From Olivibacter domesticus (GTDB lineage: Bacteria; Bacteroidota; Bacteroidia; Sphingobacteriales; Sphingobacteriaceae), in NCBI RefSeq assembly GCF_900109575.1, contig NZ_FOAF01000001.1, positions 434,001 through 498,000 of the forward strand: DNA of 64,000 nt, given 5' to 3'. Of the stretch, positions 8,386 to 27,506 are shown in pieces (position 1 is the first letter of the stretch; the number at the start of each line of letters is the position of its first letter). The position numbers and the translations under genes are program-made. The notes beneath the pieces are model-generated. The model saw only the letters and a program-made list of their open reading frames with translations, was not told the origin of the DNA and did not search any database.

Positions 8386-8401
8386 TTTTGTGGTATTTAG
8401 T

Positions 8402-9691
8402 TTATAGAAATTTTTGAAGATATGCGATAAAGACTTTCCAATCTGAGGGAATGGTTCCATGTCCACCGGCATGCATATAATAACCTAAAGCTTGGAATGC
8501 TGAGGCCGTGTTGCCACTGTTAGGGAATGTCTTGAGCAAGGGGTAGATACCATGTAGTTGGTAGACGGGAACTGCAGCTTGGGCCGCTAGATATTCACCT
8601 TTTGGGTCTGACCAATAATCTTCATCTCCGGTTTGTAGTAGGAGGGGACGTGGAGCAATCAGAGCGATTAGCTCATGCGCATCGACTGGAAAAGCAGCTG
8701 CATTGTTTACATACTGATGTCTATTCGGTGCAAATTGGTAGAAATATCGGGACGTGTCTGTCATATGTGAAATACTTTCACCATATTCTCTTCTGCTTAA
8801 TGCCGCGCCACCTTCGCCCGAACAGCTGGCAATAGTAAGTTTGATACGGGAATCTGAAGCACTTGTCCATAAAGCCGTTTTACCTAAGCGCGAAACGCCA
8901 AATAGTGCTATACGTTTGTTATCTACTTCGGGATCTTGACTGAGGCAGTCGATAATGCGTTGCGTCCCCCATGCCCATGCCGCTATTGCTCCCCAGGTAT
9001 CAGCTTTTATCTGCTTCTTCTCCGTATCCATTAAATGATGCCTGATACCTTCTTTATGAATGGCGTTCTTGTAGTCGGGTTCGATATCGCCATAATAAAA
9101 AGTAGCAAAGCCTATGCCTGCAGCCAATAAACTATCGAGAGGCACCTGCGGTGCTTGTGCAGGTGCTAATAATCGTTCTCCAACTTTATTATATATATAG
9201 GTTGCTTGAATTGCAGAATCGGCCACTGCCCGGTTGTTTGCTTGAAAAGCAATATGCAATAAAAGAGGAGTTTTTCCTTTCACCTGTTTGGGTAGATAAT
9301 AAAGTACATTTACGCTTTGTGTTTTATCATCACTTAAGTAAACCCGAACTTGTTTTCTGATTGCTTTATTTGATTTTGCGCTTCGGTTTTCTTCAATCAA
9401 TTGCCATTCTGCGTTCCTAATGGCCTGTTTTGGAATCTGACCAAATTGATATTCTCCAAAAAAGTTTAGCAATTCTGTTCGGCGTTTTCCTTGCCAATCA
9501 CTAATACTACGTACGGCTTTGCCATTATTGAAAACAAGTGGATCGGGTAGTTTATATTTGCCGACATGTGCTTCGCTATAATTTACGGGAAAGCCTGCTA
9601 CAGTGTTTGCTAATCGCTGTTGTGCTTGTACAGTAAAGGCATAGCAGAGTCCTAACAGCATACTAGCTGTTTTATTTTTTATCATGATCAC
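8402..9691 (-). CDS. Glucuronoyl esterase-like alpha/beta hydrolase (CE15)
   Basis: Predicted CE15 esterase, a family that cleaves ester links between 4-O-methyl-glucuronic acid of xylan and lignin alcohols. The 429-residue protein has a signal peptide ending near VQAQQ, then an alpha/beta-hydrolase fold. The nucleophile motif GVSRLGK (Ser267) matches the CE15 G.SR.GK signature, followed by SGEGG (Glu293) and a C-terminal HAGGHG motif (His407/His411) that supplies the catalytic His. IAPRPLL..TG..D also fits the fold. It is the first gene of the CE15-susC-susD unit, so the locus probably serves glucuronoxylan or a related uronate-containing glycan. The alternative is another acyl esterase of the same clan, such as an acetyl-xylan esterase. 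Start could be Met1 or Met3. Confidence 0.8.
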   Translation of the reverse strand: MIMIKNKTASMLLGLCYAFTVQAQQRLANTVAGFPVNYSEAHVGKYKLPDPLVFNNGKAVRSISDWQGKRRTELLNFFGEYQFGQIPKQAIRNAEWQLIEENRSAKSNKAIRKQVRVYLSDDKTQSVNVLYYLPKQVKGKTPLLLHIAFQANNRAVADSAIQATYIYNKVGERLLAPAQAPQVPLDSLLAAGIGFATFYYGDIEPDYKNAIHKEGIRHHLMDTEKKQIKADTWGAIAAWAWGTQRIIDCLSQDPEVDNKRIALFGVSRLGKTALWTSASDSRIKLTIASCSGEGGAALSRREYGESISHMTDTSRYFYQFAPNRHQYVNNAAAFPVDAHELIALIAPRPLLLQTGDEDYWSDPKGEYLAAQAAVPVYQLHGIYPLLKTFPNSGNTASAFQALGYYMHAGGHGTIPSDWKVFIAYLQKFL

Positions 9692-10015
9692 AATGAATTA
9701 TACTGGTTTACAAGTGTATTGGTGGTGGGATTTTTTATTATAAAGGCGGGCCATCTATCGGATGAGCATCACCTAATGCACGTCTTTTTCCTCGAAAAGC
9801 GTCCAGTAATAAATCATTTAGAAAGGAGATTCTTAGCAATTTGTTTGGCATAACTGGTTTTATTTTGGTGGTCTATAAGTGTTACAGCTTCGATCCCGAT
9901 TGAGGATATGCATGATGGCAAGTTAAAAAAACGGAAGGTATAAGTTAATATTTACTGGAAAAAACTACGCAATCGATACCAAACTTCTTTTGCTAAAATT
10001 GCTTATCATTTCATC
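9692..10015. other. Intergenic region upstream of the CE15-SusCD unit
   Basis: This 324-bp gap holds the presumed promoter region of the CE15-susC-susD unit, although no clean TAnnTTTG box was found, and one 37-codon open frame listed separately. Otherwise nothing recognisable. Confidence 0.5.
9738..9851 (-). pseudogene. Possible gene remnant, 37 codons
   Basis: A short frame starting at an ATG reads MPNKLLRISFLND, then LLLDAFRGKRRALGDA, and stops. The NKxLLISFLNDLL-like beginning is reminiscent of the N-terminal part of Rpn-family (PDDEXK_2) transposase-like nucleases, which usually run to about 280-300 residues, so this would be a fragment. The resemblance is by eye and weak. A meaningless open frame is an equally good explanation. 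Confidence 0.2.
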
Positions 10016-10609
10016 TCACTGGATGTTAAAGAAAAGTCTATATATATAAGAAAGCTCGTAGACAAAAAACAGCAGTATAAGAATTGCGTGAAAGGTTTTA
10101 TTGTTTGAATAGATGGCTATTATACACAGAATAAGATGTGTAATATTTCGTATAGGATATTCCCAATTATAATGCTGATGATAATAATCCTGCCCTTTAA
10201 TAAAAGTATCTATAAAATCCAGTATAAAAGAGAACCCTAATACACCGAAAATCCACTTCTTCCTCGAAAAGAAATATTCTTTATATGATTTATATTCTCC
10301 AAGATTTCCAGGAATTAACAGTGCGCATAACACATAATAAAAACTGATATAGAAAAAAAGGAAAAAGTATTCGGCAAAGTTCCAATGCTTAACAATCCGC
10401 AATTCTGCTTCCCACCACCAGAAATGTATAATGAGCAGTAATACATAACCGCACCAAGTTAAATGGACCCAATAAGGCTTAATTGATTTAGGGTGTTCTA
10501 TAAAGTTCACCATTCCTTTTAATAGGTGTGTAATACTTAACCCCAGTATAATAGCAATAATAGTTTTTACATGATCAAAGGTCATGGTAACCTGAAGCAA
10601 ACTCAACAT
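10016..10609 (-). CDS. Hypothetical multi-pass membrane protein
   Basis: A 197-residue integral membrane protein with about six hydrophobic segments and a conserved-looking N-terminal block (IILGLSITHLLKGMVNFI, then YWVHLTWCGYVLLLIIHFWWWE). I have seen similar uncharacterised proteins in Bacteroidota and Proteobacteria but know of no function. It stands alone, with more than 300 bp on both sides. Its many aromatic residues and lack of charged residues inside the helices give no hint of substrate. Confidence 0.75.
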   Translation of the reverse strand: MLSLLQVTMTFDHVKTIIAIILGLSITHLLKGMVNFIEHPKSIKPYWVHLTWCGYVLLLIIHFWWWEAELRIVKHWNFAEYFFLFFYISFYYVLCALLIPGNLGEYKSYKEYFFSRKKWIFGVLGFSFILDFIDTFIKGQDYYHQHYNWEYPIRNITHLILCIIAIYSNNKTFHAILILLFFVYELSYIYRLFFNIQ

Positions 10610-10931
10610 GGAATAAAATTTTAATAGATCCCTAGAAACGTTATCATAACTAAGTTTTTCAACGCATAATAGACTAAAAATACCATTTTTCTTGGATTAT
10701 TTAGGCTATTATTTTTTTTTGATCCAATGCTTTAGAGCTGCACAACACAATAAAGTCATCATCCAGTATATATCGCTTTCATTTTTTTAAACTTGTAGCA
10801 ACGAATTACTATTGATCCTATTTTCATATTACCTTTTTGATACATGATATAAACAACTATTCATTGTCCTAGTTTTGTTCTATCGTTCGGGATTTATTAA
10901 TTTAGAACTTTCTTATCTTGATTAGTCTTTT
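10610..10931. other. AT-rich divergent intergenic region
   Basis: A 322-bp spacer between divergently transcribed genes (membrane protein on minus, nitrilase-fold hydrolase on plus). It must hold both promoters, but no good -7/-33 pair stands out. Nothing else seen. Confidence 0.5.
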
Positions 10932-11720
10932 ATGAAGATAGCTTTGGCATCACCCCCTTTTCCTAAATCGATTAACGATGGTTTGTATTGGCTTGAAAAA
11001 TTGGTAAAAAATGCTGCCCGCAAAAGGGCTGAAATCATTTGTTTTCCCGAGTCGTTTATTCCAGGTTATCCGGGAATGGGATACGCTATTGAGGAACGCT
11101 CATCAACAAAGCTTCAGCTGGCGCTGGAGAAGGTCTGCCTTATTGCAGCTGAAAATGCCATAACTATTATTGTTCCAATGGATTGGCATTTTGCCAATGG
11201 AATTTTTAATGTAGCCTATGTGGTTTCGAATAGAGGAGAAGTATTGGGGTATCAAACGAAAAACCAATTGGATCCTTCCGAAGATGATTATTGGACTGCG
11301 GGTACGGAACGGAATATTTTTGAAGTAGGTGGAATAAAAATTGGGATTACAATATGCCACGAAGGATTTCGCTATCCTGAATCTGTTAGATGGGCTGCAC
11401 AGCAAGGCGCGCAGATTGTGTTCCACCCGCATTTTGTAGGAAGTAACATAGAAGGTGTACAACTCACGGAATGGGGAAATAAAGATAACCCTTATTATGA
11501 AAAAGCGATGATGATGAGAGCCTTAGAAAACACTATCTATTTTGCTAGCTCCAATTATGCTTCGAGCTACCCAGGCTCTGCCAGTGCTGTGATTGATCCA
11601 GACGGTGGTTGCCTTATACATGAAAAGTATGGAAATATTGGAGTCATCGTGGCAGATATAGATACTGCCCGAGCGACTGGTTTGCTAGCCAAGAGGTTTA
11701 AAAAAGAACTATATCAATAA
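10932..11720 (+). CDS. Carbon-nitrogen hydrolase (nitrilase superfamily)
   Basis: Cytoplasmic hydrolase of a C-N bond (amide, nitrile or carbamoyl). The 262 residues carry the complete catalytic triad of the superfamily: Glu40 (CFPESFIPGYP), Lys110 (YQTKNQL) and Cys142 (ITICHEGFRYPE). A second Glu-like position in the DPSEDDYWTAG loop also fits. There is no signal peptide. Length is typical for single-domain amidase-type members (260-300 residues). It is monocistronic, and no neighbour points to a substrate. Most likely an omega-amidase- or N-carbamoyl-type amidohydrolase; the subfamily cannot be fixed by reading. Confidence 0.9.
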   Translation: MKIALASPPFPKSINDGLYWLEKLVKNAARKRAEIICFPESFIPGYPGMGYAIEERSSTKLQLALEKVCLIAAENAITIIVPMDWHFANGIFNVAYVVSNRGEVLGYQTKNQLDPSEDDYWTAGTERNIFEVGGIKIGITICHEGFRYPESVRWAAQQGAQIVFHPHFVGSNIEGVQLTEWGNKDNPYYEKAMMMRALENTIYFASSNYASSYPGSASAVIDPDGGCLIHEKYGNIGVIVADIDTARATGLLAKRFKKELYQ

Positions 11721-11911
11721 GTAATCGGTCTAAACCGCTATTAATATAAATCGTCAACAATGTTATTCTATCAAGCTACAGCACGGTAGTTCGTAAGGTC
11801 ATTAAGTGAATAAGCTATGAAGTAATAGAAGCCATCCGCAATACACAGCGCGATCGCTAACAAAAAGGCTAACGCTCACTGGCCTTGCAACCTATAATGA
11901 GCCTAGCCCCG

Positions 11912-11961
11912 CTATAGCTTCTTGCTAGGATGACTATAGCTTCTTGCTAGGATGGCTATAG
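11912..11961. repeat. 22-bp tandem repeat, 2.3 copies
   Basis: Two consecutive copies of a 22-bp unit (ctatagcttcttgctaggat + g + a/g) at 11912-11933 and 11934-11955 differ at one position and are followed by the first six bases of a third copy. It lies in non-coding sequence. Confidence 0.9.
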
Positions 11962-12102
11962 AACGAGTATACAATCTTCCTGCACTGACCCTGCAACGAC
12001 CCTACAATCATACTGCCTCAGTCCTGTCTAAGCCTTGTCTATATTATAGCAATTCGTTACCAAGGATTACACACTAATATGTAAGACTATGGCATGCTTG
12101 CA

Positions 12103-12126
12103 GGACCGACCTCATAGGGTGAGCGT
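12103..12126. repeat. Short dispersed repeat, copy 1
   Basis: The 24-nt sequence beginning GGACCGACCTCATA matches 49353-49376 at 21 of 24 positions, both times at the edge of a gene-free interval. Its core is nearly self-complementary in the second copy. Origin unknown. Confidence 0.6.
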
Positions 12127-12304
12127 GAAAAAGTTTCGAGTGGAGTAGGAGAATGATATGAAGGGAAGTGATTGTATACTATGATCTGAGAAGTTTTTTA
12201 GCGAAGATTGTGAAGTCGTGAGTTTTGACCCTTTTTGTCAAGAGCGCTCTATGCAATTTGGCGATGGCTATCCTTACTTTATCAAGCAAACAGAGAAAGG
12301 GTGG

Positions 12305-13036
12305 TCAAAAAATCAGCTGCTTTATTGCCGAAAGATAATTTCGTCCGACATTGATCTCAACATCGTTTGGTAAGGTCACAAATAATTTAGAGATGTCTTT
12401 ATATAAAGTAATGATATGCTCAACATTAACAATATAGGAGCGATGTATCCGGATAAAACGGTTATCCAGTTTTCGTTCTATACTCCCGATGCCAAAAGAA
12501 CTTAAATATGAGTGGTTATCAAGGGTGTAGATCCATGTATAATCTCTCTCTGCTTTAAAGTAGGTTATATCATGAATGGCAATGCTCTGAAGTCGCCTAC
12601 CATTTTCAACGAGTATACGGGAAGGCAATTCGCTCTTCGCCAGCGAGTACAGAAGATTTCCGTTCATCAGCGTGATATCATACCATTTTAAATATTTTTC
12701 CAATGCAAGATATAAGCGATCCATGTTATAAGGCTTTAGCAAATAGTCGATGGCATTATGCTCAAAGGCTTTTATGGCGTGCATTTCTGCTCTACTGGTG
12801 AAAATTACCGGCGGCACATGATCCACATTTGCCAGTACCTTAAAGGCATTCTGCCCAGGTAAATCCGTATCTATAAAAAGCAATTGTGGCGCACGGGCAT
12901 TAATGTATTTTACGGCTTCCAGGCCATTGGAGCATGCACCGGATACGTAAAACGAAGGGAAAAGCCGCATAGATTCGCAAATCAGCGTACGTTGTGTGTC
13001 ATCAGCATCTACAATGAGTACAGATATCTTGTTCAT
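12305..13036 (-). CDS. LytTR-family response regulator
   Basis: Two-component response regulator of the LytR/AlgR class. The 243 residues comprise a receiver domain (about 5-120) with the acidic pair (VDADD, residues 9-13), phospho-acceptor Asp56 (LLFIDTDLPG), the Thr/Ser switch (FTSRAE) and conserved Lys102 (LLKPYNM), followed by a LytTR DNA-binding domain (about 140-240; ITYFKAERDYTWIY, then FIRIHRSYIVNVEHI). No histidine kinase gene lies next to it, so it is an orphan here. A Crp-like regulator follows on the same strand, 68 bp away. Confidence 0.95.
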   Translation of the reverse strand: MNKISVLIVDADDTQRTLICESMRLFPSFYVSGACSNGLEAVKYINARAPQLLFIDTDLPGQNAFKVLANVDHVPPVIFTSRAEMHAIKAFEHNAIDYLLKPYNMDRLYLALEKYLKWYDITLMNGNLLYSLAKSELPSRILVENGRRLQSIAIHDITYFKAERDYTWIYTLDNHSYLSSFGIGSIERKLDNRFIRIHRSYIVNVEHIITLYKDISKLFVTLPNDVEINVGRNYLSAIKQLIF

Positions 13037-13104
13037 GATGTTAGGTTGTTACAGCACAAAGATAAGGGTACATGAAACAGTCAGATCTGACATTTGTCAG
13101 GATC

Positions 13105-13692
13105 TTAATCAGGACGTTTAATAACTTGCTTTCTAATTCTGCTCAGGCTATCCTGATGGATGCCCAAAAAAGAGGCAATATATTTTAAAGGGATCGTCTG
13201 TACTACTTCGGGCTGCTGCTGAAGTAGTTTCTGATAACGTTCTTCTGCGGTAAGGCATACGGCATCGATCTGCATATCCTGCAACCAGCTTAACAGTCGG
13301 TGCATAATTGCCTGTTCAATTTCATAAGCCTTGGATACTTGCTTTTTAATGGCTTCTACATCTGTTTTGGACCACTCCAGCACTTCAATATCGGTTAATG
13401 TTTCCAATGCGCAAGATGATAGCTCACCGTTTAATAAATATAAGGGTGTTGAAATAAAGTCATTTGCCGATACTAATCCTAATGTGTAGTCGCTCCCCTC
13501 GTGTACGCGGAACAGCCTTACAATGCCCTCGTTAAGGAAAAATAGCTTTTTTACGATTTTTCCCTGATGCATGACGATGGTATGTTTTGGTATAATTCGA
13601 TGCCCGGTTACGGAAGAAATCATTTGTACATCCTTAGGCGACATGGATATTCCCCGTGTTTGTAGATATACGCATACTTTTTTAAATATCAT
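13105..13692 (-). CDS. Crp/Fnr-family transcriptional regulator
   Basis: A 195-residue cyclic-nucleotide-binding-fold regulator. The N-terminal beta-roll (HTIVMHQGKIVKKLFFLNEGIVRLF) is followed by a dimerisation helix and a C-terminal helix-turn-helix (IASFLGIHQDSLSRIRKQ). The cAMP-contacting phosphate-binding-cassette residues of E. coli Crp are not evident, as is common in Bacteroidota members of unknown effector. No cysteine cluster for an Fe-S centre is present. It is transcribed alone or just after the OmpA-like gene, which ends 83 bp upstream. Confidence 0.92.
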   Translation of the reverse strand: MIFKKVCVYLQTRGISMSPKDVQMISSVTGHRIIPKHTIVMHQGKIVKKLFFLNEGIVRLFRVHEGSDYTLGLVSANDFISTPLYLLNGELSSCALETLTDIEVLEWSKTDVEAIKKQVSKAYEIEQAIMHRLLSWLQDMQIDAVCLTAEERYQKLLQQQPEVVQTIPLKYIASFLGIHQDSLSRIRKQVIKRPD

Positions 13693-13774
13693 GACTATTT
13701 ATAAGCTTATAGCGCTAGACGGTGATTATTGCTTATAAATATATCAATAATGAATTGAAAAAAAAATATTTGAC

Positions 13775-15094
13775 TTATAGGCGTATAAATTCTACTCGTC
13801 TGTTTTGTGCCATTCCCTCTTTTGTTTTATTATCTCCCATGGGGGCAGATTCACCTTTTCCAAGGGCTTCCAGCCGATTGGCGGTAATACCATAGGTATT
13901 TTGCAGCTTCTCTTTTACTGCCTTTGCCCTAAGTTCGCTTAATTGCTGATTGGCTTGCTCTTCACCAACTGCATCGGTATGTCCGATAATCTGCACGTTC
14001 ATATCTTGGTTTTCGGTTAACACTGTAGCGATGGATTTCAATACGCCTGATGAGCTTGCTTTGATATTGGCAGAACCGGTGTCGAAAAGAATACCGGTAG
14101 TGCTAAACTTACCTTCTTCTATCAGTTTATGTCTTGTGTCGGGCAAACCTTTTGCAATTTTGATATTGGAGATATACACACCTACCTGATCGTTCTGGTA
14201 AGGACTGCTGCTTAACTGGAAGAACAACTGATTGAAGATGCCGTCTATAGGTATGGCCTTAGGCACATCGTATATCTTTTCTTGGTCCATCCATATCCGT
14301 AATCGTTCTTTTTGACCTTGCATAGATACATGTACCACTGTACTGTACCAATTTTTGGCCAGGGTACTACGTTGTGGCGGACTATTAAAATGCCTTGTAT
14401 ACTTTTTATAGGTTTCCAGTACCAGATTGGCCCCATCTGAAAGTGGAGACACTTCCATGTAAAAGGATTTATCACCTTTCGGGTCAGATAGTAAGGGGTT
14501 CCCGGTGGGGTCCTCCTGGCCGGAGGCCAGCAGGCCAAAACGTACTGAAGGCGGTAACCATCCTTTGAAATCGAACTGTAGAAATAGATCGAATTCCACT
14601 GTAAAGTCGGATCCCAGCATTTTCTTATTGTCTGTCAAAGCGACTGTTCGCTGTGCCATGCGCAACCATTGGCCATCCATGCCATCCAGCTTTACAATAA
14701 CAGAACTTCCGTTGCTATTCCAGTTCCTTGGTAATTCTCCAAGAGCCTCGTTTGAAAAGTCGTTAACATATAATACAGAATCACCGGGAACAAAGTCATA
14801 CTTGCTGAATGCCTTTACGCTGGATGGTTCTTGGTGGCCATCGGCAGACTCCTTTTCGTTAGAAGCCTCTTCTTGGATGGTTTCTTGGGTAGTACCTGTT
14901 CCTCCAATGGCTTTATCTAAATGCTTGCCAACAGCTTTATCCGTTTTATCGAGGATTTTGCCTGTGGCCGCTTGAGTAGCCCTATCTTTTATTTTTTTAA
15001 ATAGTGACTGCGCGTTCGATGTGCTGGGTAAGGTCATCATAATAGCGATTATGCCGAAACAAAGCAGGATATTTCTGAAAATGAACCTATTCAT
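13775..15094 (-). CDS. OmpA-family cell-envelope protein
   Basis: Secreted protein of 439 residues with a signal peptide (cleavage near STSNAQS), a Lys-rich alanine segment, a central beta-rich region that resembles a concanavalin/LamG-like domain (about 95-310; DFSNEALGELPRNWNSNGSS), and a C-terminal OmpA domain (about 330-439; ILFDTGSANIKASS, QIIGHTDAVGEEQANQQLSE, NRRVEFIRL). The OmpA domain binds peptidoglycan non-covalently, so the protein probably links envelope and cell wall. The central domain could bind carbohydrate, but that is inference. It is monocistronic with a 314-bp gap upstream. Confidence 0.9.
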   Translation of the reverse strand: MNRFIFRNILLCFGIIAIMMTLPSTSNAQSLFKKIKDRATQAATGKILDKTDKAVGKHLDKAIGGTGTTQETIQEEASNEKESADGHQEPSSVKAFSKYDFVPGDSVLYVNDFSNEALGELPRNWNSNGSSVIVKLDGMDGQWLRMAQRTVALTDNKKMLGSDFTVEFDLFLQFDFKGWLPPSVRFGLLASGQEDPTGNPLLSDPKGDKSFYMEVSPLSDGANLVLETYKKYTRHFNSPPQRSTLAKNWYSTVVHVSMQGQKERLRIWMDQEKIYDVPKAIPIDGIFNQLFFQLSSSPYQNDQVGVYISNIKIAKGLPDTRHKLIEEGKFSTTGILFDTGSANIKASSSGVLKSIATVLTENQDMNVQIIGHTDAVGEEQANQQLSELRAKAVKEKLQNTYGITANRLEALGKGESAPMGDNKTKEGMAQNRRVEFIRL

Positions 15095-19906: not shown

Positions 19907-22063
19907 ATGAGCGTCTATACTAAAAACCTTTTAAGCTTTATATTGATACTGCTGCTTACACCAATAGCAGGTAAAAGCCAAACAGAAACCTCTTATACAA
20001 AATACGTAAATACCTTTATTGGTACGGCTCCTCTTACTGATCCTAAAATTCTTGGTTATGAATTGCCAGAAGGGTGGAGATCGTGGGCGGGACTTACATT
20101 TCCTGGCAGTTCATTGCCTAATGCGATGGTGCAATTAAGCCCTATTACTGAATACGGATCGGGTGCAGGATATGAATATGAAGATACTGTTATTTATGGC
20201 TTTACGCACACCAATAAAGGTCATTGGAATCTTTGTAATGTTCCTGTTTTGCCTCTTTCAAATTCCGATGGCAAATTTGGTTCGAAGTTTTCGCATAAAA
20301 ATGAACATGCCGCTCCTGGCTTCTATCAAGTATATCTTGATGATTACGATGTTAATGTTAGTTTAACTTCTACATTACGATGCGGTTATCATCAATATGA
20401 ATATAAAAACAATAGAGACCGTCAAATACTTTTTGATCTGGCAAAAGCCAATAATCGCGTATCAACATGGAGTATTGAGCAACAGGGAACGTCTGTTTTA
20501 CAGGGGTATCAGCAAACGGGGGAAAGAATTTACTTTTATGCTGTCCTGAACACTGCTATTGAAAAATTAGAAAAAAAGGAGGAGGGTAAGTCTACAGGGT
20601 TTGCCGTGGCGCATTTAGTTAATGGAAATACAGGCCCCGTTGAACTTAAAATAGGATTGTCATTTGTAAGTGTTGAAAATGCAAAAGAGAATCTGGAAGA
20701 GGAGATTGGCGATAAATCTTTTACTGAAATTCGTAATAAAGGAACCCAAGAGTGGGAGAACCTGTTGTCGTCCATACAAGTGAAGGGTGGAACGGATAAA
20801 CAGAAAGAAATGCTGTATTCTTGCTTGTACCGATCATTTTTATGGCCGGCGTTGCGCAGTGATGTAAATGGAGAATTTACGGATGCAAAGGAAAAAGTAG
20901 ATAAAGCCGACTTTAATTATTATACGGAGCCTTCTTTGTGGGATACCTATCGGAATAAGGATGTGCTGTTAGGTCTAATTTCACCTCAGGTGACACTTGA
21001 TGTTATTAAATCAATGAAGGATGTAGGGGACAAAACAGGATTTATTCCTACTTTTTTTCACGGTGATCATGGTGCCTCCTCTATTGCAGGTGCTTATTTG
21101 AGAGGAATTGATAATTTTGATGTGAGGGGGACTTATGAGATATTGTTAAAAAATGCTAATGTAGCGGGAGGTGCCCGGCCATATATTGAAGAATATATTC
21201 AGAAAGGCTATATCGCTGATCCTGATATTCCCAATCCGCATGTAGAAACAAAGGCAAAGGCAGGCGTCTCGAAAACTTTGGAATATGCCTACGACGATTA
21301 TTCGGTTGCTCAATTAGCTAAGGAGTTAGGTGACACAGCCAATTATAGGATATTAATGGCTCGATCGAAGAATTATAAAAATATGTTTGATCCAACTACC
21401 AGGTTTATGAGGGGCAGATTAGAAAATGGTGATTGGATTAAGAATTTTAATCCGCAGTACCCTTACTATGAATATATGTACCGAGAAGCAAACGCTTGGC
21501 AGGTTTCTTTTTTTGCCCCGCATGACATGAAAGGATTAATTGCATTGTATGGTGGAGAAAAAGGATTTGAATCAAAACTGGACTCCCTGTTTACAGTGCC
21601 ATGGAATCCTACCTACATTGCGAGAAATGTTGAAACAATGATAGGGCAATATTGTCATGGTAACCAGCCGGATCATGAGGCGCCGTTTGCTTATCACTTT
21701 ATAGGGAAACCGGAAAAGTCTCAAAAAATAATCGATAATATTTTAAATAATCTATACGGAATCGGCGATGACGGCTTGGCGCTTTGCGGAATGGATGATG
21801 CAGGTGAAATGTCATCATGGTATGTGTTCAGTGCATTGGGCCTATATCCGTTTTCAGCAACTGACGCCGAATATATTGTTACAGCTCCGCTGTTTGATGA
21901 GGTGAAATGGAGAACGAGCAATGGAAAAATGCTAACCATTAAAAAGCCCGAAAAGGGAAGGGCCATCAGCGCTATAAAAGTGAATGGAAAACCAAATGAA
22001 GGTTATTTTGTGTCGCATAATTTATTTCGTAATGGTGGCGAAATTACTATTGTTACAAAATAA
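19907..22063 (+). CDS. GH92-family glycosidase with Gln at the usual catalytic-acid position
   Basis: Secreted GH92 enzyme, a calcium-dependent exo-alpha-mannosidase family. The 718 residues begin with a signal peptide (to about GKSQ), then the beta-sandwich domain (VNTFIGTA, GLTFPGSSLPNAMVQLSP) and the alpha/alpha-barrel with HGDHGAS, CHGNQPDHEAPF and GMDDAGEMSSWYVFSALGLYP (Asp630-Asp631). In typical GH92 mannosidases the third motif reads GNEP and its Glu is the catalytic acid. Here it is Gln587. A Gln at this place is known in a GH92 enzyme that removes mannose-1-phosphate caps, where the leaving group needs no protonation. The gene has its own promoter and terminator, so it is not part of the following operon. 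Confidence 0.9.
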   Translation: MSVYTKNLLSFILILLLTPIAGKSQTETSYTKYVNTFIGTAPLTDPKILGYELPEGWRSWAGLTFPGSSLPNAMVQLSPITEYGSGAGYEYEDTVIYGFTHTNKGHWNLCNVPVLPLSNSDGKFGSKFSHKNEHAAPGFYQVYLDDYDVNVSLTSTLRCGYHQYEYKNNRDRQILFDLAKANNRVSTWSIEQQGTSVLQGYQQTGERIYFYAVLNTAIEKLEKKEEGKSTGFAVAHLVNGNTGPVELKIGLSFVSVENAKENLEEEIGDKSFTEIRNKGTQEWENLLSSIQVKGGTDKQKEMLYSCLYRSFLWPALRSDVNGEFTDAKEKVDKADFNYYTEPSLWDTYRNKDVLLGLISPQVTLDVIKSMKDVGDKTGFIPTFFHGDHGASSIAGAYLRGIDNFDVRGTYEILLKNANVAGGARPYIEEYIQKGYIADPDIPNPHVETKAKAGVSKTLEYAYDDYSVAQLAKELGDTANYRILMARSKNYKNMFDPTTRFMRGRLENGDWIKNFNPQYPYYEYMYREANAWQVSFFAPHDMKGLIALYGGEKGFESKLDSLFTVPWNPTYIARNVETMIGQYCHGNQPDHEAPFAYHFIGKPEKSQKIIDNILNNLYGIGDDGLALCGMDDAGEMSSWYVFSALGLYPFSATDAEYIVTAPLFDEVKWRTSNGKMLTIKKPEKGRAISAIKVNGKPNEGYFVSHNLFRNGGEITIVTK

Positions 22064-22097
22064 TGGAAAGGCGGCTGTATCTGTTGTCTAGGAATTA

Positions 22098-22120
22098 GAG
22101 GGTGGTTAACCGCCCTTTAA
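22098..22120 (+). terminator. Terminator of the GH92 gene
   Basis: Stem GGGTGG / CCGCCC with TTAA loop (one G-T pair), followed by a short TTTAA tract, 35 bp after the stop codon. Confidence 0.6.
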
Positions 22121-22134
22121 TAAGTAAAAGATAA

Positions 22135-22194
22135 TATGCTACAATACCTTGCATATATGCTATAATACGCCTATTGATCTTGCTAATAAATTTG
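22135..22194 (+). promoter_or_regulatory. Putative activator sites and promoter of the RuBisCO-like operon
   Basis: Two 13-bp direct repeats, TATGCTACAATAC (22135-22147) and TATGCTATAATAC (22156-22168), are exactly 21 bp apart, two helical turns. They lie upstream of a TAnnTTTG box (TAAATTTG, 22187-22194) that has no -33 element. Taking +1 near 22200, the repeats centre at about -59 and -38, the usual place for an activator. The regulator is not identified in the window. Confidence 0.5.
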
Positions 22195-22333
22195 TCAGCA
22201 TAAATCTAATCTATTTAATTTAATAATGATGGTGAATTATTTATGTAGTTCATCAAAAATTAAGGAGGATAGTTGCGCCTCAATTATAGGCACACGCTAC
22301 CATTCGAAGGATTAGCTGGTTTAAACTTTATTT

Positions 22334-23581
22334 ATGGAAAGAATTACGGCAAAGTATTATATAGAAACACCTAATGAACTTGAAAAGGCAGCGCATGTTT
22401 TGGCCGGTGAGCAATCATCTGGCACTTTTGTAAAGATTCCAGGCGAAACGGAAGAACTGAAGCAACGCTTTGCAGCACGAGTTGAAAACATTACTTTGTT
22501 GGAGTCTGTTAAGGAACCGTCTATTCCAAGCAATAAAGTCGTTGCTACTTCATACCATCGTGCAAATATTGAAATTTCTTGGTCGATCGAAAATTTCGGT
22601 TATAATCTACCCTTATTGTTATCCACTTTGCAAGGTAATTTGTATGAACTGAGTCAGTTTACCGGACTGAAATTGATGGATATTGATCTACCGCCTTCTT
22701 ATGAGGAACACTTTAATGGACCTCGTTTTGGTATTGCAGGCTCAAGAAAAAGCATGGATGTATATGACCGTCCTATGATTGGTACCATTATAAAGCCTAG
22801 CATAGGAATGTCGCCGGAAGAAACAGCTGTTTTAGTAAAAAAGTTGGCAATCGCAGGTGTTGATTTTATTAAGGATGACGAATTACAATCATCTGCTGCC
22901 AATTCAAAGTTTGAAGATCGAGTAGATGCGATCATGAAGGTGATTAACGATCAAGCGGATAAGAATGGGAAAAAAGTTATGTACGCTTTCAATATCAGCG
23001 ATGAATTGGATAATATGTTACGACGGTATGAATATGTACTAAAAGCGGGGGGTACTTGTGCCATGATCAGTGTGAATAGCGTAGGACTTACAGGTGTGAA
23101 GAAAATATGTGATCAGGGAAAATTGGTTATTCATGGACATCGTAATGGTTGGGGGATGTTAAACCGTCACCCACTATTAGGAATTGAATTTACAGCCTAT
23201 CAAAAATTATGGCGTTTGGCTGGTGTCGACCAGCTCCATGTGAACGGTATTCAAAATAAATTTTGGGAATCGGATGATTCGGTTGTACGGTCAATTGAAG
23301 CATGTTTGAAACCCTTATTTAGAGGTGAGACGCTTCTCCCCGTAATATCATCGGGCCAATGGGGAGGACAGGCTTTCGAAACGTATAGCCGTACAAAAAC
23401 AACCGATTTACTTTATATGGCAGGGGGAGGAATCATGGCGCATCCAGATGGACCTGCTGGAGGTGTAATGGCATTGCAACAGGCATGGGAGGGGGCAGTC
23501 AACGGCTTAACCTTGGAAGAAGCAAGGCATCAGTACGCAGAATTTTCTAAATCGGTTCAAAAATTTGGTGTTAAAGCATAA
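22334..23581 (+). CDS. RuBisCO-like protein (form IV), probable sugar-acid phosphate enzyme
   Basis: A 415-residue RuBisCO large-subunit homologue. The metal-binding loop is intact: GVDFIKDDE gives the carbamylated-Lys equivalent Lys180 with Asp182 and Glu183. Lys154 (GTIIKPSIG) matches the active-site Lys of the TIKP motif, HGHR (267-270) the phosphate/His region, and SSGQWGG (339-345) and AGGGIMAHPDGPAGG (363-377) the phosphate-binding loops. It is not a photosynthetic enzyme: loop 6 (VNGIQNKFWES) differs and there is no small subunit or phosphoribulokinase. One nucleotide downstream is a DUF1537 kinase gene. That pairing is known from D-apiose/apionate catabolism, where RuBisCO-like proteins act on 3-oxo-isoapionate-4-phosphate. 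The exact substrate here is inference. Confidence 0.92.
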   Translation: MERITAKYYIETPNELEKAAHVLAGEQSSGTFVKIPGETEELKQRFAARVENITLLESVKEPSIPSNKVVATSYHRANIEISWSIENFGYNLPLLLSTLQGNLYELSQFTGLKLMDIDLPPSYEEHFNGPRFGIAGSRKSMDVYDRPMIGTIIKPSIGMSPEETAVLVKKLAIAGVDFIKDDELQSSAANSKFEDRVDAIMKVINDQADKNGKKVMYAFNISDELDNMLRRYEYVLKAGGTCAMISVNSVGLTGVKKICDQGKLVIHGHRNGWGMLNRHPLLGIEFTAYQKLWRLAGVDQLHVNGIQNKFWESDDSVVRSIEACLKPLFRGETLLPVISSGQWGGQAFETYSRTKTTDLLYMAGGGIMAHPDGPAGGVMALQQAWEGAVNGLTLEEARHQYAEFSKSVQKFGVKA

Positions 23582-23582
23582 G

Positions 23583-24980
23583 ATGATAGGCAAGCAAGCT
23601 CTTTTATTGGCTTACTACGGTGATGATTTTACCGGTTCAACGGATGCCCTGGAATTTCTTAGCCGTGCTGGCGTAAATACAATACTTTTTATTGAACCAC
23701 CTACACAAGAGAAATTAGCGAATTATAAAGAGGTGCAAGCGATCGGTGTAGCTGGTGCGAGCCGAGCGATGCCACCATCTGTAATGGAAAGGGAATTGTT
23801 TGAAGCATTTACAGCTCTGAAGATGCTTGGCGCACCACATGTACATTATAAGGTTTGCTCGACATTTGATTCTTCTCCAACGATTGGCAGTATCGGTAAA
23901 GCAGCAGATGTGGGGAAACAGGTTTTTAATGCCGCATTTATTCCATTGTTGGTGGCGGCACCAGCGCTGGGCAGATATTGTGTATTCGGCAACCTTTTTG
24001 CGCGTATGGGTATTGGGAGCCAGGGTGAAATATATCGATTGGACCGTCACCCTTCCATGAGCCGCCACCCGGTTACACCAATGGAGGAAGGCGATTTACG
24101 CCTACATATCGCTAAACAAACTACACAACGCATTGAATTGATGGATATTTTAACCATTAAATTCAAAAAAGAACTAGCCTACGAAAAATTGCAACAGTAT
24201 ATAGACAAAGGTAGTCCGATCGTTTTGTTTGATGCTTTGTATGTAGATCAGTTATTACCTATTGCACAATTAATGGATGACTTTGCTGACGTAGCTAAGC
24301 CATTATTCTCCATAGGCTCGTCGGGTATCGAAATGGCTTTGGGAGAATATTGGAAAGAAAAGGGATTAACGCGAGAAAAAAAAAATTGGGAAGCGGCCGG
24401 TAGAGCTCGAAGCATGTTGGTTGTATCCGGTAGCTGCTCGCCCGTTACAGCTGAACAAATAAACTTTGCCCTGGAGCATGGTTTTGTAGAAGTAGCCATT
24501 TCCGCGATAGCTACCGCTTCTTCTGTAAATGGAGGCGTAGCTCTACAATATTATGTCGAGCAGATAGTTGGACTTATTCAAAAAGGCCATGCCGTCATTG
24601 CACATTCTAGCTTAGGTAGTCATGATCCGAGAATCGAAGAAACATATCATGTCCTAAGCGAACAGGGCCTTACCGATGAAGAAATACGGGCAAAAACAGC
24701 ACTGCTTTATGGTGAGATTTTGGGATTAATTGCTTTAGGTGTAGCTGAAGAAATACATTTGCAACGCTTAGTGATTGCTGGTGGTGATACGTCTAGCTTC
24801 GTTGCTCGTACAATGGGTATCGAGGCTGTGGAGATGATCGCTCCTGTTTCACCGGGCGCACCTTTGTGCAAGGCATACGCACCTGAGTCTGTTGTAAATG
24901 GCATAGAGGTGAATTTTAAAGGCGGACAGGTGGGGAGCAAAGATTATTTTATAACTGTACTGGAGGGGAAAACCTCATAA
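23583..24980 (+). CDS. Four-carbon acid sugar kinase-like protein (DUF1537)
   Basis: ATP-dependent kinase of sugar acids (OiaK/DtnK/OtnK-like family), 465 residues from the ATG at 23583, which follows the RuBisCO-like stop by one base. An upstream ATG at 23565 overlaps that gene and adds nothing conserved. The N-terminal substrate domain has YYGDDFTGSTDALEFL and YKVCSTFDSSPTIGSIG; the C-terminal nucleotide domain has VSGSCSPVTAEQ, AGGDTSSFVA and PVSPGAPLCKA, all family hallmarks. It should make the phosphorylated sugar acid that the RuBisCO-like protein uses. A 3-oxo-isoapionate kinase role is the closest known precedent. Seven bp separate it from the next gene. Confidence 0.93.
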   Translation: MIGKQALLLAYYGDDFTGSTDALEFLSRAGVNTILFIEPPTQEKLANYKEVQAIGVAGASRAMPPSVMERELFEAFTALKMLGAPHVHYKVCSTFDSSPTIGSIGKAADVGKQVFNAAFIPLLVAAPALGRYCVFGNLFARMGIGSQGEIYRLDRHPSMSRHPVTPMEEGDLRLHIAKQTTQRIELMDILTIKFKKELAYEKLQQYIDKGSPIVLFDALYVDQLLPIAQLMDDFADVAKPLFSIGSSGIEMALGEYWKEKGLTREKKNWEAAGRARSMLVVSGSCSPVTAEQINFALEHGFVEVAISAIATASSVNGGVALQYYVEQIVGLIQKGHAVIAHSSLGSHDPRIEETYHVLSEQGLTDEEIRAKTALLYGEILGLIALGVAEEIHLQRLVIAGGDTSSFVARTMGIEAVEMIAPVSPGAPLCKAYAPESVVNGIEVNFKGGQVGSKDYFITVLEGKTS

Positions 24981-24987
24981 AATTTGA

Positions 24988-25656
24988 ATGAAAATGGAAT
25001 TGAAAACATTAGGACTTATTCACACATCAGCTACTTTGATACCTGTTTTTCAACAACTCTGCCAACAATATTTGCCTGGTATAACGATCTTCAATATTGT
25101 TGATGACAGTTTGGTCAAGAATATTATTGCAAAAAACGGCGAAGTAGGGACATCGATTTATAAACGTGTAGCAGATTATGTCGCTTCGGCTGAAGATGCT
25201 GGAGCGGACTATGTGCTGGTAACTTGTTCTTCCATAGGTGCGGCTGTAGAGGCCGCGGCTGAGAAGGTGAGCATTCCGGTATTGAGAGTAGATCAACCCA
25301 TGGCTGATCTGGCGGTACAAGCAGGTAAGCGCGTAGGGGTCATTGCAACACTGCAGACGACTTTAGAACCTACCAGTGATTTAGTAAAACGTCGAGCCGT
25401 CCTCGCTAACAAAGAAATTGAATTGACAGCCAAACTATGTGAGGGAGCCTTTGATGCCCTTATGAGTGGTGACACAGCAAGGCATGATACATTGGTTGCT
25501 AATGCGCTGCGTGAACTGTCTAAGCAGGTGGATGTGATATTATTAGCGCAAGCAAGTATGGCGCGCGTGGTAGACACATTAAGTAGTGAAGATAAAAAAG
25601 TGCCTATTGTTGCTAGTCCGCCAAACGCCATTCAATACATTGCCAATTCACAATAA
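24988..25656 (+). CDS. Asp/Glu-racemase-fold protein with a single catalytic Cys
   Basis: A 222-residue member of the Asp/Glu/hydantoin racemase superfamily. The N-terminal half carries the nucleophile Cys80 in VLVTCSSIGAAVE. The second Cys expected in the C-terminal half is replaced: the matching stretch reads VILLAQASMARVV, with Ala188 where racemases have Cys. Two-base racemisation is therefore unlikely. One-Cys members of this superfamily include arylmalonate decarboxylase-type enzymes, so a decarboxylase, isomerase or lyase role is more plausible. It lies between the kinase (7 bp) and the transporter (9 bp), so it belongs to the same pathway. Specific reaction unknown. Confidence 0.85.
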   Translation: MKMELKTLGLIHTSATLIPVFQQLCQQYLPGITIFNIVDDSLVKNIIAKNGEVGTSIYKRVADYVASAEDAGADYVLVTCSSIGAAVEAAAEKVSIPVLRVDQPMADLAVQAGKRVGVIATLQTTLEPTSDLVKRRAVLANKEIELTAKLCEGAFDALMSGDTARHDTLVANALRELSKQVDVILLAQASMARVVDTLSSEDKKVPIVASPPNAIQYIANSQ

Positions 25657-25665
25657 ACCACTAAC

Positions 25666-26961
25666 ATGAAGCTATTGCAAAAAATCTGTTTGAGTATAAG
25701 TTTCTTATCGCTCATCGTTTTATTGAGCGGACTGATAATGCACAGTATGTCTGTCTGGCAACCGGCAGCAGTTTGTATGGTGGTTACATTTGCCGTTGGA
25801 ATAGGGGGGATTGAAGCCCTGAAAAATTACCAATATACCGCGTGGATCATTGTGGCTGTGGTTGCTGCAATGATTTATCCACATGCATTTTTAAAATGGG
25901 GAAATGTTGACCTTCGAAATAAGTGGCTCATTCTGATTATTGTACAGATGGTTATGTTCGGAATGGGAATACAGATGAGCATTCGTGATTTTTCAGGATT
26001 GGGCAGCACAGGTAAGGGTGTATTGATAGGTCTTATCTGTCATTTCTCTATTATGCCATTAATTGGTTTTCTATTAACGCGTATGTTTGATTTTGATGCG
26101 GAGATAGCAGCCGGTATTATTCTAATCGGTTCTTGTTCAAGTGGATTAGCATCTAATGTAATGGTTTACTTGGCAAAGGCAAATCTGGTATTATCTGTTA
26201 CGGTTACGGCTATGGCTACCTTGGTTGCTCCCTTTTTAACCCCGCTATTAATGCGCTTATTAGCCGGAACGCTCATTGAGGTTAAGTTTTTACCGATGAT
26301 GCTGGAGATTATCCAAATTGTAATTGTCCCTATCGGTGCCGCACTTTTACATGATTACTTAAAGCAAGCTTCATCGAAAGGCAAGCGTGTAACTGCTGGA
26401 ATAGCAGTTGTTTGTATATTATGGTTAGTCTGCCAGTATTTATTTTTATGGGATCAGTTGAATAACTATCTATCAGTCCCTTCAATGCAGTCTCTAACGG
26501 TATTTAACTTTTTTACAGGAGCCTTTATTGTGGGAGCATTATATCACCTGCTTTATCTGAAGTTTAACCATATAGATCAGTACGTTCCTTACTTGTCTAT
26601 GTTCGGCATCGTTTATTTTACGACGGTTACAACAGCCGCTGGGAGAGATAATTTGTTGCATGTAGGCTTGTTGTTATTTCTGGCCTCTGTGCTGCATAAT
26701 GGTGCTGGGTATTTCTTTGGCTATTGGCTTGCTCGCTTATTTAAGCTGGATAAAAATTCGGCTCGTACGATCGCTTTTGAAGTGGGACTGCAAAATGGTG
26801 GCATGGCTTCAGGTCTGGCAGGTAGCATGGGTAAATTGGCCACTGTTGGATTGGCAGCAGCAGTATTTAGCCCATGGATGAACATCTCTGGTTCTTTACT
26901 GGCAAACTATTGGCGTAAGCATCCGGTAGATACTTCTAAAACGAAAACTGAAAATATTTAA
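25666..26961 (+). CDS. Bile acid:sodium symporter (BASS) family transporter
   Basis: Inner-membrane transporter of 431 residues with about twelve hydrophobic segments. The family core is clear: MFGMGIQMSIRDF, then GSCSSGLASNVMVYLAKANL (the crossover/Na-site region), LVAPFLTPLLM, and FEVGLQNGGMASGLA. Despite the family name, members carry many organic acids such as pantoate and pyruvate. As last gene of the operon with a sugar-acid kinase and a RuBisCO-like enzyme, it is the likely importer of the free sugar acid. The stop codon sits inside a strong terminator hairpin. Confidence 0.92.
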   Translation: MKLLQKICLSISFLSLIVLLSGLIMHSMSVWQPAAVCMVVTFAVGIGGIEALKNYQYTAWIIVAVVAAMIYPHAFLKWGNVDLRNKWLILIIVQMVMFGMGIQMSIRDFSGLGSTGKGVLIGLICHFSIMPLIGFLLTRMFDFDAEIAAGIILIGSCSSGLASNVMVYLAKANLVLSVTVTAMATLVAPFLTPLLMRLLAGTLIEVKFLPMMLEIIQIVIVPIGAALLHDYLKQASSKGKRVTAGIAVVCILWLVCQYLFLWDQLNNYLSVPSMQSLTVFNFFTGAFIVGALYHLLYLKFNHIDQYVPYLSMFGIVYFTTVTTAAGRDNLLHVGLLLFLASVLHNGAGYFFGYWLARLFKLDKNSARTIAFEVGLQNGGMASGLAGSMGKLATVGLAAAVFSPWMNISGSLLANYWRKHPVDTSKTKTENI

Positions 26962-26972
26962 TTTTCAGTTTT
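26944..26972. terminator. Terminator of the RuBisCO-like operon
   Basis: A perfect 12-bp inverted repeat (AAAACTGAAAAT / ATTTTCAGTTTT) with a 5-nt loop overlaps the last codons of the transporter. Its A- and T-rich arms allow use from both strands, which suits the convergent DinB gene ending at 27009. Confidence 0.85.
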
Positions 26973-27008
26973 ATACCGTAATTGTATACTTAAATTATGC
27001 ACAAAATA

Positions 27009-27506
27009 TCAGAATGTGGTATCTGCCGACGGTCCGTAGATTGAAGGTACGCTGATATCATTTAATCGCATGTACACTGTGAGTTGCCCTCGATGATGAA
27101 CTAGGTGATTTATGGTAGATTCAATGCTTTTACGTTTAGATGTACTAAACATTACCTGACCATTTGCCTTTAATTCGAATTTACCATCAAGATCTCCGCT
27201 TTTAATTGAATGCAAAGCTATCTTGGCTTCTTCTACGTTTTCATCAAAATGATTAACTAGGTCTTGCGAATTTTGTGGTTTAAAGTGCTCAAATGTTGCA
27301 TAGTCAATATTGTTATTCAATATCATATGTGTTATCCATTTTGGAATTTCCGCAACTAATAAAGATAAATAACCCAATTCCATTGATCTTGAATGGGGTT
27401 TCCATGTGAATAGTTCTTGTGGAATACGCTCTAAGCACTGTCTTGTAGCAGTTTTCTCGGCCTCTAATTCTCCAATAAAGGCCTTAGCAAAAGTAATATC
27501 GTCCAT
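27009..27506 (-). CDS. DinB-family putative metal-dependent protein
   Basis: A 165-residue four-helix-bundle protein of the DinB/YfiT superfamily. The C-terminal motif NHLVHHRGQLTVYMRLND supplies metal-binding histidines, and an earlier ELFTWKPHSRSMELGYLSLLV block fits the family. Members are thiol transferases, damage-inducible proteins or of unknown role. It stands alone, convergent to the RuBisCO-like operon. Confidence 0.88.
   Translation of the reverse strand: MDDITFAKAFIGELEAEKTATRQCLERIPQELFTWKPHSRSMELGYLSLLVAEIPKWITHMILNNNIDYATFEHFKPQNSQDLVNHFDENVEEAKIALHSIKSGDLDGKFELKANGQVMFSTSKRKSIESTINHLVHHRGQLTVYMRLNDISVPSIYGPSADTTF

Follow-up and report, generated by a model that had tools for sequence, protein, structure and literature searches.

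The 64,000-nucleotide window analysed here (Olivibacter domesticus, contig NZ_FOAF01000001.1, positions 434,001 to 498,000) contains a compact four-gene operon at window positions 22334-26961, which encodes a RuBisCO-like protein (RLP), a DUF1537 kinase, a racemase-fold protein and a BASS-family carrier. From the neighbourhoods of related operons and from the chemistry of known relatives, we infer both a substrate and a set of reactions: the operon is probably a cassette for the uptake and catabolism of aceric acid, a reading to which we give a probability of roughly 0.55. Aceric acid is the branched acid of side chain B of the pectic polysaccharide rhamnogalacturonan II (RG-II). In chemical terms it is 3-C-carboxy-5-deoxy-L-xylose, according to passages of one source (PMC8218411). 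An earlier note on this DNA had proposed a sugar-acid cassette akin to the apionate enzymes and left the substrate open; the kinship stands, and the relatives now point to aceric acid. The four open reading frames (ORFs) are intact, adjacent and separated by gaps of 1, 7 and 9 bp, and each falls into the family that the note had named:

22334..23581, forward strand: RLP, 415 aa (PF00016/PF02788), proposed 3-C-carboxy-5-deoxypentulose-1-phosphate decarboxylase or transcarboxylase/hydrolase.
23583..24980, forward strand: DUF1537 (four-carbon acid sugar) kinase, 465 aa from ATG (PF07005/PF17042), proposed ketose-acid 1-kinase.
24988..25656, forward strand: PF01177 racemase-fold protein, 222 aa, proposed aldose-ketose (ketol) isomerase.
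25666..26961, forward strand: BASS-family carrier, 431 aa (PF01758), proposed sugar-acid importer.

The Pfam assignments are clear, with E-values of 1.8e-64 for PF00016, 3.4e-53 for PF07005, 2.2e-29 for PF17042, 5.1e-23 for PF01177 and 1.6e-34 for PF01758. The RLP has both PF00016 and PF02788, along with the KDDE motif, and thus belongs to the RuBisCO superfamily; the kinase scores above the cut-offs of both DUF1537 models (PF07005, 181.2 bits; PF17042, 103.5 bits), and the racemase-fold protein reaches 82.4 bits against a PF01177 cut-off of 31. Were the kinase to start at an alternative in-frame TTG (23565), its gene would overlap that of the RLP. The carrier matches PF01758 (BASS/SBF) with 119.7 bits and has 3zuy as its best match in the PDB (E 2.6e-53). 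Its best NCBIfam model is PanS (NF047939), with 218.3 bits against a cut-off of 400, so that it does not qualify as a PanS pantoate transporter.

The four genes recur as a unit across Bacteroidota. Relatives were collected by an RLP scan with one genome per species (142), from which the best 80, Bacteroidota by record title, were kept. Eight of these 80 loci seemed incomplete by ORF calls and four remained so after tblastn; the full set is therefore present in 76/80, and 70/80 keep the same order and strand. In six Dyadobacter loci, the RLP-kinase pair faces the BASS and racemase-fold genes convergently. The four exceptions are L004, at a contig end; L014, with only a partial kinase; L046, with the RLP alone; and L070, where positions 8001-14187 hold an RLP, a BT_1020-type protein, a racemase-fold protein and a BASS carrier, with no kinase within the fetched stretch. 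The whole cassette also occurs on a Rufibacter plasmid. Apart from the cassette genes themselves, protein clusters reach at most 26/80 loci. Recurrence of the set is far beyond chance; loss of gene order, which had been set beforehand as a possible refutation, did not materialize, and the idea of a self-contained sugar-acid cassette is borne out.

The RLP and the kinase are related to the enzymes of the apionate pathway, as previously suggested. The best NCBIfam model for the RLP is OiaX (NF042437, 512.7 bits) and that for the kinase is OiaK (NF042436, 448.7 bits), both under a cut-off of 700. A useful reference is genome G592, a member of the same order whose apiose-type locus (L132:5619-18539) carries GH140, a Gfo/Idh dehydrogenase, an RLP, a kinase, a sugar ABC transporter, a 274-aa oxidoisomerase-like protein and an ApnL-like lactonase. 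The content of this locus is reportedly that of the apiose/apionate pathway of Carter et al. 2018. Its RLP, which is 52% identical to that of the window, scores 478.4 bits with OiaX, its kinase 447 bits with OiaK and its lactonase 308 bits against a cut-off of 750, all under the NCBIfam cut-offs. Since an RLP from an apiose-type locus also fails the OiaX cut-off, this cut-off does not discriminate in Bacteroidota.

Phylogeny sets the cassette RLPs apart. In a tree of 51 rows, 35 of them a picked subset of cassette RLPs, all 35 form one clade (support 100/99), separate from the RLPs of apionate-type operons and of TRAP/pyruvate-kinase-type operons of Proteobacteria and Archaea; the RLP of the G592 apiose locus also falls outside. 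The outgroup branches are very long and the outgroup placement is unsure; only the cassette clade is relied on here. Thirteen positions are conserved among cassette RLPs but usually hold another residue in the 11 other RLPs aligned, so that the apionate RLPs differ from the cassette RLPs both in clade and in these residues. Conversely, Lys154, Lys180-Glu183, His269, Lys309, Ser340 and the GGG motif are common to all 11. Two of these features are placed as follows:

22871..22882, forward strand: Lys180-Asp181-Asp182-Glu183 of the RLP, the KDDE motif, with a conservation of at least 97% among 83 cassette RLPs and 11/11 among other RLPs.
22631..22633, forward strand: Gln100 of the RLP in the N-terminal loop STLQGN, cassette-specific, with Ala in 9/11 other RLPs.

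Mapped by motif, Lys180-Glu183 presumably corresponds to K201/D203/E204 of RuBisCO, i.e., the carbamylated Lys and the Mg ligands. The STLQGN loop is taken, from RuBisCO structures, to line the active site. The closest match in the PDB is 3nwr (E 2.6e-116). The form III RuBisCO model gives 231 bits, far under its cut-off. Membership in the methionine-salvage MtnW clade, which would have spoken against a sugar-acid role, was considered and rejected, as the MtnW models score far under their cut-offs (TIGR03332, 135.7 of 513.6 bits; NF007095, 172.3 of 409 bits). Form III RuBisCO and MtnW share the fold and the active-site motifs with the cassette RLP, whereas the proposed substrate of the latter is a C6 branched acid phosphate.

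The surroundings of the relatives direct attention to RG-II. Clusters of neighbouring proteins comprise GH127, GH78 (the copy examined being closest to PDB 3cih), GH106, GH141, the GH140 apiosidase, BT_1020-type proteins and acetylesterases, and at least one of seven RG-II marker hydrolase families occurs in the fetched flanks of 41/80 loci. GH127 is present in 25/80 loci and lies directly upstream of the RLP in 20/80, which makes it the commonest direct neighbour. For the GH127 protein of L011, the nearest solved structure is 5mqo (837.6 bits vs 375 for the next). A model of the L025 copy likewise has 5mqo, entitled 'Glycoside hydrolase BT_1003', as its top Foldseek match at 53% identity; with a mean predicted local distance difference test score (pLDDT) of 68.2, this model serves to name 5mqo and not as fine evidence. 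BT_1003 is described as an aceric-acid hydrolase in passages of two papers (PMC10850190, PMC5698469). The GH127 neighbour is thus of the BT_1003 type by sequence, with aceric-acid glycoside activity as its predicted function. In nine loci (L018, L020, L021, L024, L025, L040, L056, L059 and L066), the cassette lies inside a GH106-GH127-SIAE-DUF5703 operon, which is uninterrupted in relatives that lack the cassette; nine loci that carry MaoC and FucP have the cassette as an insertion separating GH127 from the acetylesterase. GH140 lies in five Dyadobacter cassette loci.

The same hydrolase families, namely those of BT_1003 (GH127), BT_0993 (GH2), the apiosidase BT1012 and the rhamnosidase BT1001, belong to the RG-II utilization system of Bacteroides thetaiotaomicron, and they co-occur with the cassette or, in many relatives, lie around it. 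In that organism, the GH2 enzyme BT_0993 is stated to cleave Gal-beta-1,2-aceric acid (passages of PMC11739564). GH2 beta-galactosidases, possibly orthologous to BT_0993, were found in 4/80 cassette loci and in 19/39 GH127-centred regions. The passages on B. thetaiotaomicron deal with sugar release and are silent on the later fate of aceric acid. Taken together, the context of the relatives points to RG-II and, through the predicted activity of the BT_1003-type GH127, most specifically to aceric acid. On the Croceibacterium plasmid NZ_CP156083.1 (L137, L138), an RLP-kinase pair surrounded by genes for GH28, GH2, a fucosidase and a galactosidase follows a six-hairpin hydrolase that is not BT_1003-like.

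Co-occurrence was examined in two samples, 300 genomes from the order that includes O. domesticus and 395 from the phylum. In the order, the cassette was counted as an RLP of at least 64% identity, i.e., 37 matches minus G592 (52%, apiose-type locus) and G552 (23%, a fragment); in the phylum, 8 of the 125 genomes with an RLP match qualified (at least 69% identity). The score threshold for GH127 was 695 bits in the order (next score 394) and 736 bits in the phylum (21 genomes), which leaves out G154, G107, G088 and G312 (561-579 bits); that for GH140 was 504 bits (next score 317). As only the two or three top candidates of each genome were scored for GH127, some genomes counted as lacking it could have a missed copy. 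By these counts, 35/300 genomes of the order have the cassette RLP, 108/300 the BT_1003-type GH127 and 119/300 the GH140 ortholog. GH127 is present in 35/35 cassette genomes, as is GH140; none of the 11 genomes with GH140 and without GH127 has a cassette RLP. In the phylum, GH127 occurs in 8/8 cassette genomes vs 21/395 overall. Six of these eight belong to other orders, and in G286, from another class, the cassette is complete and GH127 is some 30 bp away from the RLP. Hypergeometric probabilities are 4.7e-18 (GH127) and 2.6e-16 (GH140) in the order and 1.5e-11 in the phylum, values that ignore shared ancestry and hence overstate significance. In the 35 order genomes, the best-scoring GH127 lies within 5 kb of the RLP in 7 and within 20 kb in 10, compared with 0 and 0 for the best-scoring GH140; within 60 kb, the numbers are 19 and 17. 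Distance to the best-scoring copy thus leans towards GH127 over GH140, with the proviso that some genomes carry further copies.

A route can be drawn on paper from these proteins. RG-II hydrolases would release aceric acid outside the cytoplasm, and the BASS carrier would import the free acid. The racemase-fold protein would then convert the aldose into the 2-ketose CH2OH-CO-C(OH)(COOH)-CHOH-CH3 via an enediol, in a one-base 1,2-proton shift carried out by a single catalytic Cys where a racemase of the fold uses two. For comparison, 3-oxo-isoapionate is CH2OH-CO-C(OH)(COOH)-CH2OH. Moving the carbonyl of aceric acid from C1 to C2 would therefore give 3-oxo-isoapionate plus one methyl group, so that, on chemical grounds, neither a dehydrogenase nor an oxidoisomerase would be needed. 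The DUF1537 kinase would phosphorylate O1, as with 3-oxo-isoapionate, in which CH2OH stands in place of CHOH-CH3. Two options may be considered for the RLP. It might remove the tertiary carboxylate, and a class II aldolase would take up the resulting 5-deoxypentulose 1-phosphate; the O. domesticus genome has two genes of the class II aldolase family, so cleavage of such a decarboxylase product would be feasible. Alternatively, decarboxylation might be followed by re-carboxylation at C2 and hydrolysis to yield 3-phosphoglycerate and lactate.

This scheme can be compared with two known systems. The apionate OiaK/OiaX system has in common with the cassette a neighbouring RLP and DUF1537 kinase, the RuBisCO catalytic motif and a setting of plant-pectin sugars, whereas the cassette loci have no ApnL or ApnO and instead carry the one-Cys racemase-fold protein and the BASS carrier. 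In the tetronate pathways (LtnD/DenD-OtnI-OtnK-OtnC), an isomerase makes a 3-oxo acid, a DUF1537 kinase phosphorylates it and decarboxylation follows. The proposed route would share this logic of isomerase, DUF1537 kinase and decarboxylation; however, its isomerase would be a PF01177-fold protein and not OtnI, and its decarboxylase an RLP and not the class II aldolase-type OtnC.

The assignment of the racemase-fold protein is central to the proposal. PF01177 racemases use two catalytic Cys residues for racemization. In the cassette protein, the first of these positions is retained:

25225..25227, forward strand: Cys80 of the racemase-fold protein, the first catalytic position and the sole Cys invariant in all relatives aligned.

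Cys80 is kept in 75/75 cassette proteins and 10/10 outside relatives, and His12 and His166 are likewise invariant in all relatives aligned, but the second catalytic position is Gln188 in 75/75 cassette proteins. The 'one Cys' of the earlier note is hence correct for the active site and incorrect for the protein as a whole, which has three Cys residues; Cys151 is kept in 74/75 cassette proteins and not in the outside relatives. An AlphaFold model (pLDDT 93.1) retrieved Asp/Glu, hydantoin and allantoin racemases in Foldseek, with E 9.5e-9 to glutamate and aspartate racemases and with arylmalonate decarboxylase lower. Twelve neighbourhoods outside Bacteroidota were read from 174 matched plasmid records. 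In Deinococcus taeanensis, the racemase-fold gene has an oxidoreductase on one side and a DUF1537 kinase on the other, with a class II aldolase after the kinase; in another Deinococcus it adjoins a class II aldolase; in Haloprofundus it adjoins a class II aldolase and is itself one gene away from an OiaK-like kinase; and in Pantoea a relative of 32% identity lies two genes from otnK. Three other relatives stand with sugar ABC transporters. In Croceibacterium, the racemase-fold gene is paired with an MFS transporter away from the RLP-kinase pair, and in the six convergent Dyadobacter loci it is paired with BASS, apart from the RLP and kinase. Pairing with transporters and adjacency to kinases suggest an enzyme that acts on an imported acid and feeds the kinase. 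Moreover, ketol isomerization needs one base and racemization two, so a single catalytic Cys suits an isomerase. The protein is therefore best read, on conserved residues and gene neighbourhoods, as a putative isomerase upstream of the kinase. The D. taeanensis row (L161:6093-10064) also follows a sugar ABC transporter and resembles a sugar-acid pathway; its DUF1537 kinase is divergent, with a best NCBIfam match of 77 bits.

It is also possible, though the odds are somewhat against it, that the racemase-fold protein is a true racemase or epimerase, or resembles arylmalonate decarboxylase, and that an unlinked enzyme performs the aldose-ketose step. Its fold and best sequence matches are those of racemases, and arylmalonate decarboxylase, itself a one-Cys enzyme, is among the structural matches. 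Three Rhizobium loci place relatives among FAD oxidoreductases, two of them also with putA, i.e., in amino-acid-like settings, and a Sinorhizobium locus with an FAD oxidoreductase likewise counts against an isomerase role. Such a reading must nevertheless contend with the invariant Gln188 and with the Deinococcus, Haloprofundus and Pantoea relatives, which lie near DUF1537 kinases, where an isomerase is expected. In tetronate pathways, OtnI takes the isomerase step. No other linked isomerase is constant, as no further cluster exceeds the 26/80 loci noted above; an exported TIM-barrel protein (cluster 14), tried as the missing isomerase, was set aside, since it occurs in only 14/80 loci and the L010 copy has a twin-arginine-like signal. 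An unlikely alternative concerns the substrate, which might be another acid of RG-II or pectin, such as a different side-chain B product, a breakdown product of Kdo or Dha, or a tetronate, with the link to GH127 arising through the polysaccharide as a whole. The cassette does occur with GH78, GH106, GH140, GH141 and BT_1020-type proteins, and 39/80 loci show none of the seven markers in their fetched flanks. However, DUF1537 and RLP chemistry of the apionate type needs a 3-oxo acid with its carboxylate on a hydroxyl-bearing carbon beside the ketone, and GH127 is the most frequent direct neighbour. To our knowledge, aceric acid is the only RG-II sugar that yields such an acid by isomerization alone, which likewise tells against another acid.

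Less likely again is a variant of D-apiose/D-apionate degradation, in which the RLP and kinase would act on 3-oxo-isoapionate (4-phosphate) and unlinked or unrecognized enzymes would supply the upstream steps. OiaK and OiaX are indeed the closest characterized families, GH140 accompanies the cassette in 35/35 genomes and in the Dyadobacter loci, and Gfo/Idh-type oxidoreductases occur in 24/80 loci. This is the family to which apiose dehydrogenase presumably belongs; the proteins in question are only weakly like the one of L132 (at most 64 bits, 13/80 loci). On the other side, the 274-aa protein of G592, which weakly resembles prephenate dehydrogenase and ketol-acid reductoisomerase and which we read from its sequence as a probable oxidoisomerase, gives 602 bits in G592 alone, scores of 24.1 bits or less in 29 further genomes and no match in the rest of the 300, and this sole oxidoisomerase genome keeps a separate RLP in its apiose-type locus. 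In the fetched stretch of that locus, there is no racemase-fold or BASS gene. The L132 oxidoisomerase, lactonase and ABC binding protein each match 0/80 cassette loci, in agreement with the earlier note's remark that the operon has no dehydrogenase or isomerase of those pathways; neither oxidoisomerase nor lactonase is in the window's cassette. The O. domesticus genome gave no match for ApnO and none for ApnL, the ApnL search being weak, with no positive in any control. In addition, in none of the 35 order genomes is the best-scoring GH140 closer than 20 kb. The missing ApnO and ApnL, together with the distinct apiose-type locus in G592, thus weaken the case for direct reuse of the apionate pathway. 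A plasmid survey (12 neighbourhoods read from 365 matched records) further showed that some RLP-kinase pairs adjoin a 'phosphogluconate dehydrogenase C-terminal' gene, which may be read as ApnO, and others TRAP and pyruvate kinase genes; of the nine loci examined on this point, none has a racemase-fold gene next to the RLP-kinase pair.

A similarly low probability attaches to the proposal that a CoA-transferase/MaoC/Gfo-Idh/FucP module, and not the cassette, degrades aceric acid. In O. domesticus, contig C18 carries the BT_1003-type GH127, C7 the best GH140 and a BT_1020-type protein, and C10 the cassette. On C18, a one-strand row comprises GH2, two solute-binding-like proteins, two CoA-transferases, Gfo/Idh, MaoC, FucP, GH106, GH127, an acetylesterase and DUF5703. 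The module (C18, about 99935-120548; L091, L092) stands in GH106-GH127 operons with or without an RLP cassette, and MaoC-FucP was also seen in L093-L099, L101, L102, L112, L127 and L128. Among 20 sampled cassette-free GH127 regions, MaoC and FucP lie near GH127 in 10 and a CoA-transferase in 8, whereas the fetched stretches of the other 10 do not contain the CoA-transferase/MaoC module; moreover, MaoC-FucP is found in only 16/80 cassette loci (e.g., L001, L018 and L030). The cassette and the module may possibly be alternative routes for aceric acid, or routes for two different sugars.

Several observations weigh against the assignment to aceric acid. O. domesticus has RG-II genes, yet the cassette is not linked to them there, and 17 representatives of the neighbour families gave zero matches in the window. 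The presence of the CoA-transferase module in this genome, and near GH127 in half of the sampled cassette-free regions, belongs on the same side, as do the 39/80 loci in which no marker hydrolase was found, the Gfo/Idh-type oxidoreductases (none of which is in the window's cassette), the kinase absent from L070 and the solitary RLP of L046, and the Rhizobium settings of the racemase-fold relatives. In the order, 73/108 genomes with GH127 lack the cassette, which therefore cannot be the sole fate of aceric acid, and because GH140 co-occurs as completely as GH127, presence data alone cannot separate aceric acid from apiose. The Croceibacterium six-hairpin hydrolase, tried as independent support, is not BT_1003-like and was dismissed as such.

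Outside the operon, few features of the window bear on it. The stretch ahead of the RLP gene is as follows:

22064..22333, forward strand: non-coding stretch ahead of the operon.

A promoter scan of 22000-27100 gave 13 promoter-like sites against 14.3 expected, i.e., no excess over chance. On the same strand, 270 bp upstream of the operon, lies a GH92 gene (19907-22063), which did not cluster with the neighbours of the 80 loci and shows no sign there of membership in the cassette. On the minus strand, a 419-aa ORF at 36156-37415 matches the GH127 catalytic model weakly; it has a lipoprotein-like signal at its start and resembles another six-hairpin hydrolase.

Passages of the literature already describe hydrolases that dismantle RG-II. 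In the open-access literature searched, no description of aceric-acid catabolism or of a link between aceric acid and an RLP came up, subscription journals being mostly outside this search. In its boldest and much more tentative form, our proposal would have the cassette as the first catabolic route recognized for aceric acid, with a racemase-fold protein as a new kind of one-Cys aldose-ketose isomerase and an RLP that moves CO2 to the adjacent carbon before its hydrolysis step yields 3-phosphoglycerate and lactate; the RLP step would then be the carboxylation half-reaction of RuBisCO on internally supplied CO2. If the assignment to aceric acid holds, it would give a substrate to a clade of RLPs and to a racemase-fold subfamily currently annotated only as 'aspartate/glutamate racemase family protein', and it would provide a genetic marker of aceric-acid use. 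With three soluble proteins, the cassette would also offer another natural test of the RuBisCO active site on branched acids.

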